Of a DNA stretch of 64,000 bases, positions 9,361-63,361 are shown piece after piece (the stretch's first letter is position 1; every line of letters begins with the position of its first letter). The position numbers and the translations under genes are program-made. Origin of the DNA: Planctomycetaceae bacterium. GTDB taxonomy: Bacteria; Planctomycetota; Planctomycetia; Planctomycetales; Planctomycetaceae. The stretch spans positions 1-64,000 of the forward strand of contig PBSL01000048.1 of NCBI GenBank assembly GCA_002726205.1, given 5' to 3'. Under the pieces are notes generated by a model. It saw only the letters and a list, made by a program, of their open reading frames with translations. It made no database searches and was not told where the DNA came from.

Positions 9361-9780
9361 TTAGCGGCGACCGAGCCCGTCGCCCTCTTCGAGATCGTGT
9401 GCCACGTCAACGTGGTCGGCCCCGGCAGCTCGTGCGGCGTCGAGCACACGGACAAATGTCCCGTGCGTTGATCCGGCATCACCACGGTATGTCACGACTT
9501 TCCGCTTTGACCGACTCAATAGTGGCCCGAGCCGCTCACGAAGCGACTGCAGAGAAACCTCACTTCCGTTGAGCAGGCATCGCTGTTGCCGGGTAATCGT
9601 CACGACAATTTCGGGAGCAACCACCGCACCACTCGACCCAGCTTCCGGCAATTTCAGGTCAATCGCCGGCGCCAACAAGGTCGAGCTGAGCATGAAGAAG
9701 ATCAGCAGCAAGAACACACAGTCGATCAGTGGGCTCAGCTCGATGTTCAATGACACCTGCCGGCGGCGGGGCACCTGCAT
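9361..9780 (-). CDS. exbD: ExbD/TolR-family energy-transducing protein
   Basis: A 139-residue inner-membrane protein of the ExbB-ExbD motor that couples proton-motive force to TonB. The short cytoplasmic N-terminus (MQVPRRRQVSLNIELSPLID) leads into a single membrane helix (about 17-38), which contains the characteristic Asp in SPLIDCVFLLLIFF. The periplasmic ExbD domain follows. The start could be the ATG at 9780 or the GTG at 9783; GGAGGAG lies upstream of both. It begins 7 bp after the exbB stop, so the two are co-transcribed. Confidence 0.9.
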   Translation of the reverse strand: MQVPRRRQVSLNIELSPLIDCVFLLLIFFMLSSTLLAPAIDLKLPEAGSSGAVVAPEIVVTITRQQRCLLNGSEVSLQSLRERLGPLLSRSKRKVVTYRGDAGSTHGTFVRVLDAARAAGADHVDVAHDLEEGDGLGRR

Positions 9781-9787
9781 CACGACA

Positions 9788-10471
9788 CTACTCCTCCGGT
9801 CCCGGAGTGACTGAGTCATCGTGTCGCCGCAAAGTCTCGCCCGCTGGCGATTCGATCGCCTCCACCCATTCCTCAAGTTGTGACGCTGCCCACTGCATCT
9901 GCAACGCCGCTCGTCCGACCACAGCCTGCAAGAGGTGATAGGCCGTCAGGCAGGGCAGGGCGATCGTCAAGCCGCACACGGTCGTCAACAACGCCGACCA
10001 GATCCCGCTGGCCAGGTCACCCGGCTGGACCTGGCCGCCTTTCAACTCGATCTGATGAAAAGCACCCACCAGCCCCGCCACGGTACCCAGCAACCCCAAC
10101 AAGGGGGCGGCATGTGTAATGATCCCCAACCAGTTCAGTCGTCGGTCATACCGGGCGACTTGTTCGGATGCCTCGCGCAATACTGATTGCTCGCGCAATC
10201 GCTTTTCACTGTCCCGGTGCCCCAGATACACCGACACAACACGATGCAGTGGTCGCCGACTCGATTGCACAGAGCGTTCGAACTCGTCGAGGGAATCTCT
10301 CTCGGCCGCGGTGCGAATTTCAGCGAGCAACCCAGCGTAAGACACCCTCATGCGCCAGAAGACGAACATGCGTTCGGCGATGATCGCCACGGCCAGGATC
10401 GAACATCCCAGCAACGGCCACATGACCGGACCACCGCGTTCAAACAATTCCTGTGCGCTCTGACCCCACAT
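9788..10471 (-). CDS. exbB: ExbB/TolQ/MotA-family proton channel protein
   Basis: A 227-residue polytopic membrane protein. It has an N-terminal helix (MWPLLGCSILAVAIIAERMF), a cytoplasmic loop with charged helices, then two C-terminal helices in the family pattern (THAAPLLGLLGTVAGLVGAF and SALLTTVCGLTIALPCL). These form the channel around ExbD. The ATG at 10471 is the first Met before the membrane domain; the ribosome site is weak, and the open frame runs on to 10588. The gene is divergent from tonB across a 186-bp spacer that should hold both promoters. Confidence 0.9.
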   Translation of the reverse strand: MWGQSAQELFERGGPVMWPLLGCSILAVAIIAERMFVFWRMRVSYAGLLAEIRTAAERDSLDEFERSVQSSRRPLHRVVSVYLGHRDSEKRLREQSVLREASEQVARYDRRLNWLGIITHAAPLLGLLGTVAGLVGAFHQIELKGGQVQPGDLASGIWSALLTTVCGLTIALPCLTAYHLLQAVVGRAALQMQWAASQLEEWVEAIESPAGETLRRHDDSVTPGPEE

Positions 10472-10657
10472 GCCTTGTCGTATCGTCTCTCTATCGGTTA
10501 CCGGAAACAGACAATTCGGTGCATCCGCGGAGCTCCGTCGGCCGCGAATTGACACCTTTCCATCGCACGGCGTATTCTGGCTCTCCACGGTGCGAGGCTG
10601 CTATTCTGAACCGCCGAATCGGTAATTGTCCACCCGCTGACCGGTATCCAATCCACT

Positions 10658-11647
10658 GTGTTATTTCTTCGCGACCCACTGCTGTTGACGCTGCTGGTCA
10701 GTTCACTGGCCCACGGCCTGATGCTGTCTGTTTCTGCACGCCCGACCATTGCCCCTGCCGCAGACGTCCGCGCCGGGCGAACTTCGGTCCGCCTCCAGCC
10801 TTCCTCGCCCTCCGCCCCGACACCAGCCCTTTCGTCACAGCTACTCGACATGCTTCCGGTGGTTTCGGTCCGTCCTGTCAGAACGCCGGCCTCCACATCC
10901 CAGCCCCAACCAGACCGTGCTCCCGAACGACAAACTCTCATCGTTGCCCAGAAACGTGGTTCTCTCCCCGATCTCGACCCGCTGCCGCACCAGCCAGCCA
11001 CTCTTCAACCTACCTCCCCGGCCAATCCGGCTTCCCTTCCGGCCACGACCCGCGATCTCAACGGACAATTCGCCGTCACATCCCCGACGCCACTCCCCGC
11101 AGCTCGTGTTCAAACGAGACGCCAACGGCTGGCGCATTCCCCGCGAGGCCCGCATCACGAAGACCTTACTGAACGGCAAGCCTCCGAGCCTAACACCTCA
11201 CATCGTCCCCGGATGACTGAAGTCTCCCAGGCCCCAGCCTTTCCTTCCGAGCCCTTCAGCGCCCGCGTCACCCATCGTCGCCAGCACTCCTCCCTCACCG
11301 CGTCTCGCCGGATCGCTCCAGCCTCCGAATTGGCACAACCAGCCTCCGAACAATCGGCGGGTGGCCCGCGGCAACTGCCGGTCGCCTTGCCCGACAACCC
11401 TTCACCTCGCTATCCGCGACGTGCGATCAGCCAGAGGCGGCAAGGGGTCGTCATTCTCGCTCTTCGGGTCGACCGCGACGGGCGCGTCTCCTCGGCAACC
11501 GTCAACAAAAGTAGTGGCCATTCCGATCTTGATCAGGCAGCTCTGGTCGCGGCCCGTGCCTGGAAATTTCGGCCGGCCCGCCGAGGTGAGATGGCCGTCG
11601 AAATCACTGTCCTTAAGCCCTTTCGGTTTATCGGCCGCTCTCGCTAG
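10658..11647 (+). CDS. tonB: TonB-family protein
   Basis: A 329-residue TonB-like protein starting at GTG. A single N-terminal signal anchor (about 7-26) contains Ser15-x3-His19, the S-x3-H motif by which TonB engages ExbB/ExbD. A long Pro/Ser/Arg-rich periplasmic linker (about 30-235) spans the periplasm. The C-terminal TonB domain (about 245-326) carries PRYPRRAISQRRQGVVILAL and WKFRPARRGEMAV. It would transmit energy to the BtuB-like receptor encoded next to it. The stop codon overlaps that of the receptor gene on the opposite strand within a shared CTAG. Confidence 0.9.
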   Translation: MLFLRDPLLLTLLVSSLAHGLMLSVSARPTIAPAADVRAGRTSVRLQPSSPSAPTPALSSQLLDMLPVVSVRPVRTPASTSQPQPDRAPERQTLIVAQKRGSLPDLDPLPHQPATLQPTSPANPASLPATTRDLNGQFAVTSPTPLPAARVQTRRQRLAHSPRGPHHEDLTERQASEPNTSHRPRMTEVSQAPAFPSEPFSARVTHRRQHSSLTASRRIAPASELAQPASEQSAGGPRQLPVALPDNPSPRYPRRAISQRRQGVVILALRVDRDGRVSSATVNKSSGHSDLDQAALVAARAWKFRPARRGEMAVEITVLKPFRFIGRSR

Positions 11648-59457: not shown

Positions 59458-61398
59458 GTGAGTAACGCTCGCAAGGCTTCACAAGCCGAGGCCGTGTTGC
59501 AGGAAGCAGACGGCGGTGCCGGACTTGTCACTCCCCGAGAACGACCGGCCTGGGTGATGAGCCTGGCGGTGCATGTCGGTGGCCTGCTCCTGCTGGCCAG
59601 CCTGACACATGTCACGCTCTCCAGCCAGGATTTCGACCCGGTCGACAGTGTGTTCCAGGAGTTCGACCCGGACGACTACAGTTTTGACACGGTCGTCGTC
59701 GAGACGCTGGGCAACCAGAGCGACATCGACGATCCCAGCCCGTCCCAGGCCGCCTCAACCACGCTCAGCAAGACACCCCAGCAGGAGTTCCAAGAGCGAT
59801 TGGACGAGAAAGTCCTGACCGTCAAGCAGACCCCGACGGCCGAGATTCCACTGCCACCGGAAAATGAATTCGCCGACGTGGTCGATGTCCAGGGCCAGAC
59901 CGAGAACCCGGGAGGGATCGACGGTGCCGTTGACCGCATGGCCGTTGAAATCGACCGCTCGCTCCAGGCCAAGAAAACGCTCGTGATCTGGCTGTTCGAT
60001 GAATCCGGATCAATGGCTCCACTCCGGAATGCGATCGCAGATCGTGTCGAGGCGATCTACAAACAACTGGGAGCCCTCAAGGACAACGACAGCGACAGCG
60101 ACCGGCGACCACTGAAGACAGCCGTCGTCGGCTACAGTGACAAGACAACCATCTACACCCCCAAGCCCATCGATGATGCCGGTACGATCGTGAAGACGAT
60201 CAGAGCCATCAAGTCGGCCAAGTCGCCCGACGAGAACGTCTTCACCGCCGTTGCACAGGTGAGCAACAAGTGGCTGAGCTACCGTCGACGAATGGGTTAC
60301 AACGTGATGGTCGTGGTCGTCACTGATGAGCGGGGCACCGATTATGGTGCCGACGGCTCGGCGCTGGAAAAAGTGATCCGCCAGGTCCGCACCAACGGAA
60401 TCCGCGTCTACTGCATCGGCAACGCGGCGGTGTTCGGACGTGAACACGGATACGTCAGCTACACGTTTGCCGACGGCTTTACCGACGAGTTCCCCGTCGA
60501 CCAGGGACCCGAATCGGTCATGATGGAACGCATGGCACTGCCGTTCTGGGGAACTCGAGGGTTCGGCCGCTACCAGATGTCGTCGGGATACGGGCCCTAT
60601 GCTCTGAACCGGTTGTGCTCGGAGAGCAAGGGCATCTACCTGATCGCCAACGAGGGCAAGGGGGCCAAGTTCAACCAGGCAGTGATGAGAGGCTATCGTC
60701 CCGACTACCGCCCGATCCGAATGTATGTCAAGGACCTGGAAAAGAACCTGGCCAAACGCAGCCTGGTCCGCGCCGCGACGCTCACCCGGGAAAAACGGAT
60801 CCCGGTCCTCGGTCTGACCTTCAATGCCGAGAATGACAACGTCCTGCGGCGGGTGGTCACCGAGGCCCAAAAACCCGTCGCCGAACTCGATTTTCGTCTC
60901 AAGCAACTCCAGTTTGAACTCGAAGCCGGTGAAGCCGAACGCGGCAAGTTGACCCAACCGCGATGGCAGGCCGGTTTTGATCTCGCCCTGGGCCGCGTGT
61001 TGGCAATGAGAGTCCGGGCGTTTGGCTACAATGTGGTCCTGGCCCAGATGAAGAGCCAGCCGAAGGTATTCCAGAAGAAGGACAGCAACATCTGGCGACT
61101 GAAAGCCGACCGTGAAATCACCAGCGGCGGTGCCGTCAAGAAACTGCACAAGAAGGCCCGCGAATACCTCAATCGTGTTGTCGATCAGCACGCCGGCACG
61201 CCCTGGGCGCTGCTGGCCGAACGCGAACTCAGCACCCCGATGGGGTGGGTCTGGGTCGAAGGAAACCGCCCGGCCACCTCCAGTGGCAATCGCAAAGCCG
61301 CCAACGACCCCAACCGTGTCTTGTTTGTCGTTGATCCCAAGACGGGCAAGAAGAAGCGGGTCATGCCGAACAAGCCACGACCGCGCCCGCCGCTGTAG
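59458..61398 (+). CDS. VWA-domain protein with TonB-like N-terminal membrane anchor (paralog 1)
   Basis: A 646-residue protein. The GTG at 59458 follows AAGGA. One membrane helix (about 33-52) carries Ser35-x3-His39 (MSLAVHVGG), the TonB-type S-x3-H motif. An acidic, low-complexity linker (about 55-165) leads to a von Willebrand A domain (about 175-400). Its MIDAS metal site is DESGS in VIWLFDESGSM, completed by the Thr in ENVFTAVAQVS and Asp in VVVTDERGTDYG. A large helical C-terminal region (about 430-646) follows. The protein is probably anchored in the inner membrane with the VWA domain in the periplasm. Its paralog starts 34 bp downstream. Confidence 0.85.
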   Translation: MSNARKASQAEAVLQEADGGAGLVTPRERPAWVMSLAVHVGGLLLLASLTHVTLSSQDFDPVDSVFQEFDPDDYSFDTVVVETLGNQSDIDDPSPSQAASTTLSKTPQQEFQERLDEKVLTVKQTPTAEIPLPPENEFADVVDVQGQTENPGGIDGAVDRMAVEIDRSLQAKKTLVIWLFDESGSMAPLRNAIADRVEAIYKQLGALKDNDSDSDRRPLKTAVVGYSDKTTIYTPKPIDDAGTIVKTIRAIKSAKSPDENVFTAVAQVSNKWLSYRRRMGYNVMVVVVTDERGTDYGADGSALEKVIRQVRTNGIRVYCIGNAAVFGREHGYVSYTFADGFTDEFPVDQGPESVMMERMALPFWGTRGFGRYQMSSGYGPYALNRLCSESKGIYLIANEGKGAKFNQAVMRGYRPDYRPIRMYVKDLEKNLAKRSLVRAATLTREKRIPVLGLTFNAENDNVLRRVVTEAQKPVAELDFRLKQLQFELEAGEAERGKLTQPRWQAGFDLALGRVLAMRVRAFGYNVVLAQMKSQPKVFQKKDSNIWRLKADREITSGGAVKKLHKKAREYLNRVVDQHAGTPWALLAERELSTPMGWVWVEGNRPATSSGNRKAANDPNRVLFVVDPKTGKKKRVMPNKPRPRPPL

Positions 61399-61432
61399 AC
61401 CCCTCACTCACCGCTCAGTCAACGGCAATCTC

Positions 61433-63361
61433 ATGCAATCGGCCACCCGCAGCCTTCCGGCGTTTTCGACATCAATTGTCGTTCATGGCGTCGTGCTTCT
61501 CGCCCTCGCGGTGCTCAAGTACGACCTGCTTCCCAACGTCCCCGACGTGATTGTCGAAACACTTTTCAGCGAAGAACGGGACCAGGAGCACTTCGCCAAG
61601 GAGCTCGAAGAACAAACCGAGATCTCGGAAACGCAGAACTTCAATGCCGGGGGAGTCGTCTCGACGACCATCGGCGGTGCTGGTTCGATCCAGGTGGCCA
61701 AGACAAACATCGAGGCATCCGAGAGCCTGCAGGAACCGGAAGTCGAGGTCAACATCAGTGACGTCAACCTCCCGGGCCAGGAATTCCTCGGCGAGGATCT
61801 CGGTGTCGGAGAAGTCAACGGTGAGGTCGGCGCCGTCGTCGAGGGTTACGGGGCGGCACTGAGCCGAATTACCCAGGAACTGATTCGCCTGATGCGAGAT
61901 CAGAAGGTCCTGGTCGTCTGGCTGTTCGACGAATCCGAGAGCATGAAGGATGACCAGAAGGAAATCGCCACCGAATTCCACAAGGTCTACGAGGAACTGG
62001 GGATCCAGCAGTCGAGCGACGAGGGTCTCAAGAAGAAGGGCGAAGTCCTGACGACATCGATCCTCGGATTCGGCAACACGATCCACGTGCTCACACCGCA
62101 ACCGACCGGCGACGTCAAGAAGATCCAGCAAGCGATTCACCGCATCGGCATCGACCGCTCCGGCAACGAGAACATGTGCCAATCGATCGCCGCCGCACTC
62201 GACCAGTTCACACCACTGGCCCGCAAACAGAAGCGTCAGCTCATCCTCGTGGTCGTCAGCGACGAATCCCCCACCGACAACGCACAAATCGAACAGGCGA
62301 TCGTACGAGTGAAGAAGGCCGCCGCACCAATCTACATCCTCGGACGCGAGGCGATCTTCGGGTATCCCTTCGCGCGGCTGAGATGGAAGGATCCTGTTTA
62401 CGGACTCAATCACTGGGTCCGAATCGACCGCGGCCCCGAAACGGCCTATCCCGAGTGCTTGCAGTACGACGGAATGCATGCCCGCTGGGATTCCTTCTCC
62501 AGTGGTTTTGGCCCCTACGCCCATGTCCGACTGGCCAAGCACAGCGGCGGGATCTTCTTCATGCTTCCGGGAGAAGAAGAGGCGTTGGATGGTCCGGGAG
62601 CTCACGAGGACCGACGCTTTGCCGCTTTGGCGATGAAGGAGTACGAGCCATTGCTCCTGGCCCGTCGCGAATACGCTCAGCAGGTATTGAGCAGTCCCTT
62701 TCGCACGGTGATTTCCAACATCATCGCCAGACTCAATCCCAACAAGTATCCCCAGATCCCAAGAAATGACCCCAAGCTGAACATCCAGCGACACCACTAC
62801 TCGATCGAACCTGCCAAGTTCCGTGGCCAGGCCCGCGAGGCAGGGCAGCGAACCGTCCGGGCGATGGCACTACTCAGCGAGGCGATCGCCTTGCTCGACA
62901 AGAATGACCCCCTCCGCGCCGGCGAGGACTCGCAACGCTGGCGGGCCAACTTCGACCTGATCCGGGCACAGTGCTACGCCTACCGTGTCCGCCTGTTCCA
63001 GTTCCTGTTGGTTCTCGACCAACACGCCGTCGACTTCCCGAAGCCAAAGGGTGCCAAGACCAACCGGTGGCATTTCAATCGTTCCCGGCAGATGCGGACT
63101 CCCAACGAGGCGCAGTACAAGCGTGTCCAGGCACAGTTCAAGACCAAGAAAAAACGGGACGTCTTCCTCGAGGCACTCAAGGCACAACAGACCAGAGCCA
63201 CGCAGCTCTACGAGCTGGTCGTCTCCGAACACCCCGGAACGCCCTGGGCCCGTCGTGCCAACTGGGAACTCAAGGCCGGTTATGGAATGAGCGTCCACGA
63301 GGGTTTTCATGACCCGCGTTACCGCGATGTCGGCACCCGCATCAAGGTGCCGAAGTTCTAG
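61433..63361 (+). CDS. VWA-domain protein with TonB-like N-terminal membrane anchor (paralog 2)
   Basis: A 642-residue paralog of the preceding gene with the same layout. The N-terminal helix (about 10-30) contains Ser14-x3-His18 (STSIVVHGVVLLAL). The acidic linker (about 35-150) precedes a VWA domain whose MIDAS reads DESES in VVWLFDESESM, with ENMCQSIAAALDQF (no Thr at the second site) and VVVSDESPTDN. The region GREAIFGYPFARLRWKDPVY mirrors GNAAVFGREHGYVSY in paralog 1, and both C-termini share a GTPWA...EL phrase. The stop shares a CTAG with the convergent symporter-like gene. Confidence 0.85.
   Translation: MQSATRSLPAFSTSIVVHGVVLLALAVLKYDLLPNVPDVIVETLFSEERDQEHFAKELEEQTEISETQNFNAGGVVSTTIGGAGSIQVAKTNIEASESLQEPEVEVNISDVNLPGQEFLGEDLGVGEVNGEVGAVVEGYGAALSRITQELIRLMRDQKVLVVWLFDESESMKDDQKEIATEFHKVYEELGIQQSSDEGLKKKGEVLTTSILGFGNTIHVLTPQPTGDVKKIQQAIHRIGIDRSGNENMCQSIAAALDQFTPLARKQKRQLILVVVSDESPTDNAQIEQAIVRVKKAAAPIYILGREAIFGYPFARLRWKDPVYGLNHWVRIDRGPETAYPECLQYDGMHARWDSFSSGFGPYAHVRLAKHSGGIFFMLPGEEEALDGPGAHEDRRFAALAMKEYEPLLLARREYAQQVLSSPFRTVISNIIARLNPNKYPQIPRNDPKLNIQRHHYSIEPAKFRGQAREAGQRTVRAMALLSEAIALLDKNDPLRAGEDSQRWRANFDLIRAQCYAYRVRLFQFLLVLDQHAVDFPKPKGAKTNRWHFNRSRQMRTPNEAQYKRVQAQFKTKKKRDVFLEALKAQQTRATQLYELVVSEHPGTPWARRANWELKAGYGMSVHEGFHDPRYRDVGTRIKVPKF

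Follow-up and report, generated by a model that had tools for sequence, protein, structure and literature searches.

What does a TonB-like membrane anchor do on a protein that ends in a VWA domain? The question is raised by two adjacent genes at positions 59458-63361 of the 64,000-nucleotide window analysed here (contig PBSL01000048.1 of the Planctomycetaceae bacterium assembly GCA_002726205.1), whose products, VWA-A and VWA-B (together A/B), both begin with a membrane helix that contains Ser-x3-His, the motif by which TonB and TolA engage proton-driven motors and which is also found in the TonB encoded in the same window. An earlier note on this DNA had suggested that a proton-motive-force motor drives or positions the two VWA domains through this anchor. 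We find that the Ser-x3-His anchor of A/B is real and conserved, and it very likely serves as a motor-docking anchor. A/B are probably motor-coupled envelope proteins built like TonB and TolA, a reading in which docking, energisation, choice of partner and VWA ligand are all parts that we infer. The genes and their domains are as follows.

59458..61398, forward strand: VWA-A gene, 646 amino acids, GTG start, encoding a Ser-x3-His anchor, a disordered linker, a VWA domain and a helical C-terminal region (Pfam, AlphaFold2, Foldseek)
59548..59622, forward strand: VWA-A membrane helix, residues 31-55, PAWVMSLAVHVGGLLLLASL, with Ser35 at 59560-59562 and His39 at 59572-59574
59629..59907, forward strand: VWA-A linker, residues ~58-150, most of it with a predicted local distance difference test score (pLDDT) < 50 (AlphaFold2)
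59683-59712, forward strand: conserved VWA-A linker segment F-D-x-T-V-x-D-x-[IV]-G, residues 76-85 (alignment)
59986..60423, forward strand: VWA domain of VWA-A, residues 177-322, with DxSxS at D181-S185, Glu259 at the likely Thr position of the metal ion-dependent adhesion site (MIDAS), and D290 (Pfam, alignment, Foldseek)
60835..61233, forward strand: VWA-A C-terminal helical region, residues 460-592, with conserved HPGTPWAxxAxxEL (AlphaFold2, conservation)
61433..63361, forward strand: VWA-B gene, 642 amino acids, ATG start at 61433, with the same architecture as VWA-A (Pfam, AlphaFold2)
61454..61513, forward strand: VWA-B membrane helix, residues 8-27, PAFSTSIVVHGVVLLALAVL, with Ser14 at 61472-61474 and His18 at 61484-61486
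61523..61822, forward strand: VWA-B disordered linker, residues 31-130, mostly with pLDDT < 50 (AlphaFold2)
61547, forward strand: start of the conserved VWA-B linker box V-x-V-E-T-x-F-x-E-E-R, which begins at residue 39 (alignment)
61913..62344, forward strand: VWA domain of VWA-B, residues 161-304, with DxSxS at D166-S170, D277, and Glu246 where the MIDAS Thr would likely fall (Pfam, alignment)

The two genes lie head to tail with 34 bp between them, and both products match the Pfam VWA family, with no TonB_C or TolA C-terminal domain found by Pfam in either. In the AlphaFold2 models of both proteins (mean pLDDT of 79 for VWA-A), the helix and the VWA core are confident, the linker is mostly of low confidence and the helical C-terminal region ends in the conserved HPGTPWAxxAxxEL. 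The top Foldseek matches are VWA domains, among them the vWFA domain of LapA, and a sequence search of the PDB with the broad homologue alignment A1 gave no match. As judged by sequence alignment only, DxSxS and the Asp of the MIDAS are kept in both paralogs and the canonical Thr is replaced by an invariant Glu in each; the suggestion that only one paralog lacks the second MIDAS Thr, and with it a contrast between the two, is therefore unsupported.

Conservation of the anchor was examined in relatives and in 80 named planctomycete loci, with homologues of A/B grouped into 120 clusters that are <80% identical to one another (overall identity of 20-80%; anchor rows L018 and L055 of the tally were set by eye). 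Ser-x3-His is present in 115 clusters, Ser-x3-Asn in three and Ala-x3-His in one, and a lipoprotein signal stands in place of the helix in the remaining one. The most informative of the anchor columns listed are those of Ser and His (4.1-4.3 bits), followed by Leu at +11 (3.3-3.5 bits) and Leu at +8 (∼3 bits), the former being the Leu of the SHLS pattern and present in most clusters. Both Ser and His are invariant in the VWA-B alignment (A4), and in the VWA-A alignment (A3) Ser is invariant and His is found in at least 90%. The motif is retained in distant members from other families of the phylum and in lone VWA-A proteins that have no neighbouring VWA-B (L171, L176, and L183). The earlier note had placed the pair at Ser35/His39, Ser14/His18 and, in TonB, Ser15/His19, positions that the translations confirm; it had also held that a lack of conservation among orthologues would speak against its idea, and the pair hardly varies in either orthologue set or in the distant members. 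Among 201 called genes with an N-terminal hydrophobic helix, covering ∼828 kb of the same genome, Ser-x3-His occurs in six: VWA-A, VWA-B, a motor-linked VWA gene on contig C61, an alpha-toroid protein on contig C8, and two incidental matches. These gene counts are approximate since the gene caller skipped or mis-framed some genes, for example, a paralogue on contig C26.

The sole replacement of His within the anchors is Asn, as expected for a TonB-like docking role, Asn having been reported to substitute fully for His20 of Escherichia coli TonB. The change is seen in VWA-A of Thalassoglobus neptunius and of genomes G004, G014, G133, G151, G182, and G237, and VWA-B, where seen in these genomes, still has His. 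This recurrent natural substitution is an evolutionary parallel to the classic TonB mutant and offers a sharp test of docking. Three VWA homologues (L037 in G037:C16, L305 in G028:C10, and L310 in G156) apparently have a lipoprotein signal that replaces the Ser-x3-His helix.

The same type of anchor is linked to ExbB/ExbD operons in this genome, which has seven genes of the MotA/ExbB family. The motor genes and further anchored proteins that bear on the question are listed below, first those of the window and then those on other contigs of the genome (G000).

10658..11647, forward strand: TonB, the comparison protein (Pfam TonB_C, E = 2.2e-21), with N-terminal helix LLVSSLAHGLMLSV and Ser15/His19
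9788..10588, reverse strand: ExbB (Pfam MotA_ExbB), longest open reading frame, start uncertain, perhaps 10471
9361..9876, reverse strand: ExbD (Pfam), longest open reading frame, start uncertain
C61, 9854-13651, reverse strand (L088): VWA protein of 324 amino acids with a Ser-x3-His anchor, then TPR, ExbB, ExbD, and ExbD
C21, 193926-199978, reverse strand (L082): TPR, ExbB, ExbD, and then a protein of 1286 amino acids that combines PD40 repeats and an internal Ser-x3-His helix with a long linker and an alpha-toroid end resembling squalene cyclase
C30, 10496-17380 (L084): TPR-TPR-ExbB-ExbD-ExbD cluster with no adjoining transducer gene
C8, 4195-5688 (L090): alpha-toroid protein with a Ser-x3-His helix

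A profile of 26 positions, built from Ser-x3-His anchors, was scanned against the whole 4.86-Mb genome with E values of up to 10 and matched eight places, seven of which are the genome's own anchors that went into the profile. The single blind match, GSIAFHLLVLTVLFLW, is an internal helix of the 1286-residue protein encoded directly after ExbB-ExbD on C21, possibly a further type of transducer. The C61 operon, going by its layout, is a member of the vWA transducer kind proposed by Williams-Jones et al. (2025; PMC12204202) and coexists with A/B in one genome. When the profile was applied to 15 relatives, 43 matches were obtained, of which 4 lie ≤5 kb from an ExbB gene against 0.46 expected (Poisson P of ∼0.001, a value that is not fully independent and in part reflects profile members already linked to motors, the C61 anchor being one of those used to build the profile; the C21 match is the blind one). 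All four, in 4 of the 15 relatives, are homologues of the C61 VWA protein upstream of ExbB, with TPR and ExbD genes recognisable beside them where gene calling worked. The profile also found short Ser-x3-His anchored proteins (open frames of 305-405 amino acids; L285, L290, L291, and L292) in three genomes, with no convincing Pfam domain.

The neighbourhoods of alpha-toroid proteins tie A/B to motors indirectly. L268:13410-16080 and L191:19297-21895 encode alpha-toroid (SQHop/TED-like) proteins that carry a Ser-x3-His helix, and in the Schlesneria group a gene of this type follows VWA-B on the same strand (L192, L194, L202, L203, L204, and L208). In two other genomes, A/B lie 5-7 kb from an alpha-toroid-type gene that comes directly after ExbD. 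These proteins are absent from PMC12204202, the text of which contains neither "toroid" nor "squalene."

A/B have no motor gene beside them, so any coupling to a motor would have to be in trans. The TonB-type character of the anchor stands, with the pair conserved and the same anchor recurring in genes of ExbB-ExbD operons, but a link to the ExbB/ExbD genes of the window (9361-10588) in particular is not supported: nothing singles them out for A/B, and they adjoin their own TonB, which is the partner of this ExbB. A partnership of A/B with these genes was set aside for want of specific support. As a first guess, the C30 cluster is a plausible host, with the C61, C21, or TonB motors as alternatives. 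Most of the relatives searched have conserved the C30 ExbB, and in L187 and L235 a C30-type ExbB is encoded near A/B. The Ser of its first helix that corresponds to Ser34 of E. coli ExbB is retained by almost every orthologue, that of G033 (a genome without A/B) among them. In the cryo-electron microscopy structure, Ser16 and His20 of TonB contact Ser34 and Trp38 of ExbB (PMC12215075). No change matching the His-to-Asn substitution was found in helix 1 of the C30-type ExbB of G004 and G014.

Both proteins have conserved beta-prone segments after the helix (counted from Ser, +25 to +31 in VWA-B; in VWA-A, +26 to +30 and also +41 to +50), which sit near the spacing of the TonB D-box and the TolA R-box. 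The VWA-A segment at residues 76-85 is a possible ExbD/TolR-binding box.

Several observations weigh against motor coupling. No motor gene adjoins A/B within the window, the pair lies outside the motor operons of this genome, and an ExbB-type or motor-cluster gene is found within ∼10 kb of A/B at only a few of the ∼80 loci (L163, L187, and L235). Among the relatives compared, no ExbB paralogue strictly co-occurs with A/B: G033 has a C30-type ExbB without A/B, and G008 has A/B without a close C30-type ExbB. The residue equivalent to ExbB Trp38 is not Trp in the ExbBs of this genome, including the one adjacent to TonB. The final Ser of SHLS is missing in most clusters, and the periplasmic segments of A/B do not fit the strict hydrophobic/hydrophilic pattern of the D-box.

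On the motor-coupled reading, VWA-A and VWA-B are inner-membrane-anchored periplasmic proteins on the TonB/TolA plan, in which the SHLS-type helix (Ser-x3-His-x6-Leu) would pack on the first membrane helix of a pentamer of the ExbB/TolQ family. A flexible linker of ∼90-100 residues connects this helix to the globular end, where the VWA domain and the helical region stand in for the C-terminal domain of TonB or TolA. The partner presumably bound by the VWA end would lie in the cell wall or the outer membrane, and the proton-driven motor, acting in trans, would energise or position this end.

A rather unlikely alternative is that the anchor is of the TonB type by descent and serves for localisation only, A/B being static periplasmic VWA receptors held at the motor without force; docking would be common to both readings. 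Loll et al. suggested that the contact with the ExbB helix may merely localise TonB while the D-box carries the force (PMC10907165), and such a role for A/B would fit that suggestion, the predicted disorder of the linker, and box segments and a last SHLS Ser that are unlike those of TonB and TolA. It is harder to reconcile with the conserved beta-prone segments at rough D-box/R-box spacing in both families and with the strong conservation of the VWA and C-terminal regions.

It is unlikely that the helix instead packs against a partner other than a motor, either in an A-B heterodimer or with some other membrane protein, its likeness to TonB being convergence. Ser and His one turn apart are able to form inter-helix hydrogen bonds, which would suit such packing; A and B are usually adjacent and could pair through their similar helices, and their operon has no motor gene. 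However, the same anchor is present in TonB, in the C61 VWA protein of an ExbB operon and in the blindly found C21 gene after ExbB-ExbD, His is replaced only by the residue that TonB tolerates, and the VWA-A proteins without an adjacent VWA-B keep the motif. Finally, although Ser-x3-His is short, its origin by chance or as a compositional trait of planctomycete N-terminal anchors is ruled out by near-invariance at 20-50% overall identity and by its rarity among N-terminal membrane helices, where the matches are mostly of these families, in keeping with the view of the earlier note that chance was less likely in both proteins than in one.

The earlier note knew of no such system described, but SHLS-anchored vWA transducers had already been proposed in 2025. 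Williams-Jones et al. (PMC12204202) proposed vWA force transducers in which a disordered linker, bearing a motor box, joins an SHLS helix to a vWA end. These were reported from the Planctomycetes-Verrucomicrobia-Chlamydiae (PVC) group, Planctomycetes included, and are often encoded beside TPR-tolQ-tolR-tolR; the AlphaFold 3 models of that study put the His at the TonB/TolA site. Besides that study, a search of the open-access literature found no paper joining these ideas. A/B resemble these transducers in the SHLS-type N-terminal helix with its conserved His, the disordered linker of ∼100 residues, the VWA end and the planctomycete host, and proton-motive-force drive is proposed for both. They differ in being longer and in tandem, with an extra helical C-terminal region, and the TPR-tolQ-tolR-tolR neighbourhood that adjoins the published members is absent at A/B, which have no adjacent motor genes. 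A/B are thus a separate, longer, tandem family unlinked to motor genes.

Compared to TonB and TolA, A/B share a single N-terminal helix with Ser-x3-His-x6-Leu, a periplasmic linker and a globular end, but the latter is a VWA domain plus helices. The TPH-vWA class (PMC12204202), which is paired with tolQ, lacks SHLS and has an ExbD-like proton-binding Asp in its helix, likewise comprises membrane-tethered VWA proteins, often as heterologous pairs; A/B, in contrast, have the SHLS-type helix, no Asp or Glu in its columns and no adjacent tolQ. With canonical VWA/MIDAS domains (integrin I domain, vWF A3, and LapA vWFA), A/B share DxSxS and, by Foldseek, the VWA fold, but not the Glu at the likely MIDAS Thr position or the long helical C-terminal addition.

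In a phylum-wide draw of 199 genomes, A/B were present in all 10 sampled from the family of the window, its own genome included, and sporadic in the rest of the phylum. With them, a class so far proposed only through genome mining gains a widely conserved pair, one that searches of motor-gene neighbourhoods would miss given its location away from such genes. The occurrence of this anchor on alpha-toroid proteins suggests that planctomycete proton-driven motors power envelope functions beyond transport and outer-membrane stability. More tentatively, and with more doubt than confidence, the Ser-x3-His helix may act in Planctomycetota as a plug-in docking module through which a few shared ExbB/ExbD motors would drive TonB, two VWA families, alpha-toroid proteins and the PD40-toroid fusion in trans, with A/B as a family-wide, paired VWA device for adhesion or sensing driven by the proton motive force.

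The gene upstream of VWA-A, read from its translation, is isoprenylcysteine-methyltransferase-like, and the gene downstream of VWA-B lies on the opposite strand.

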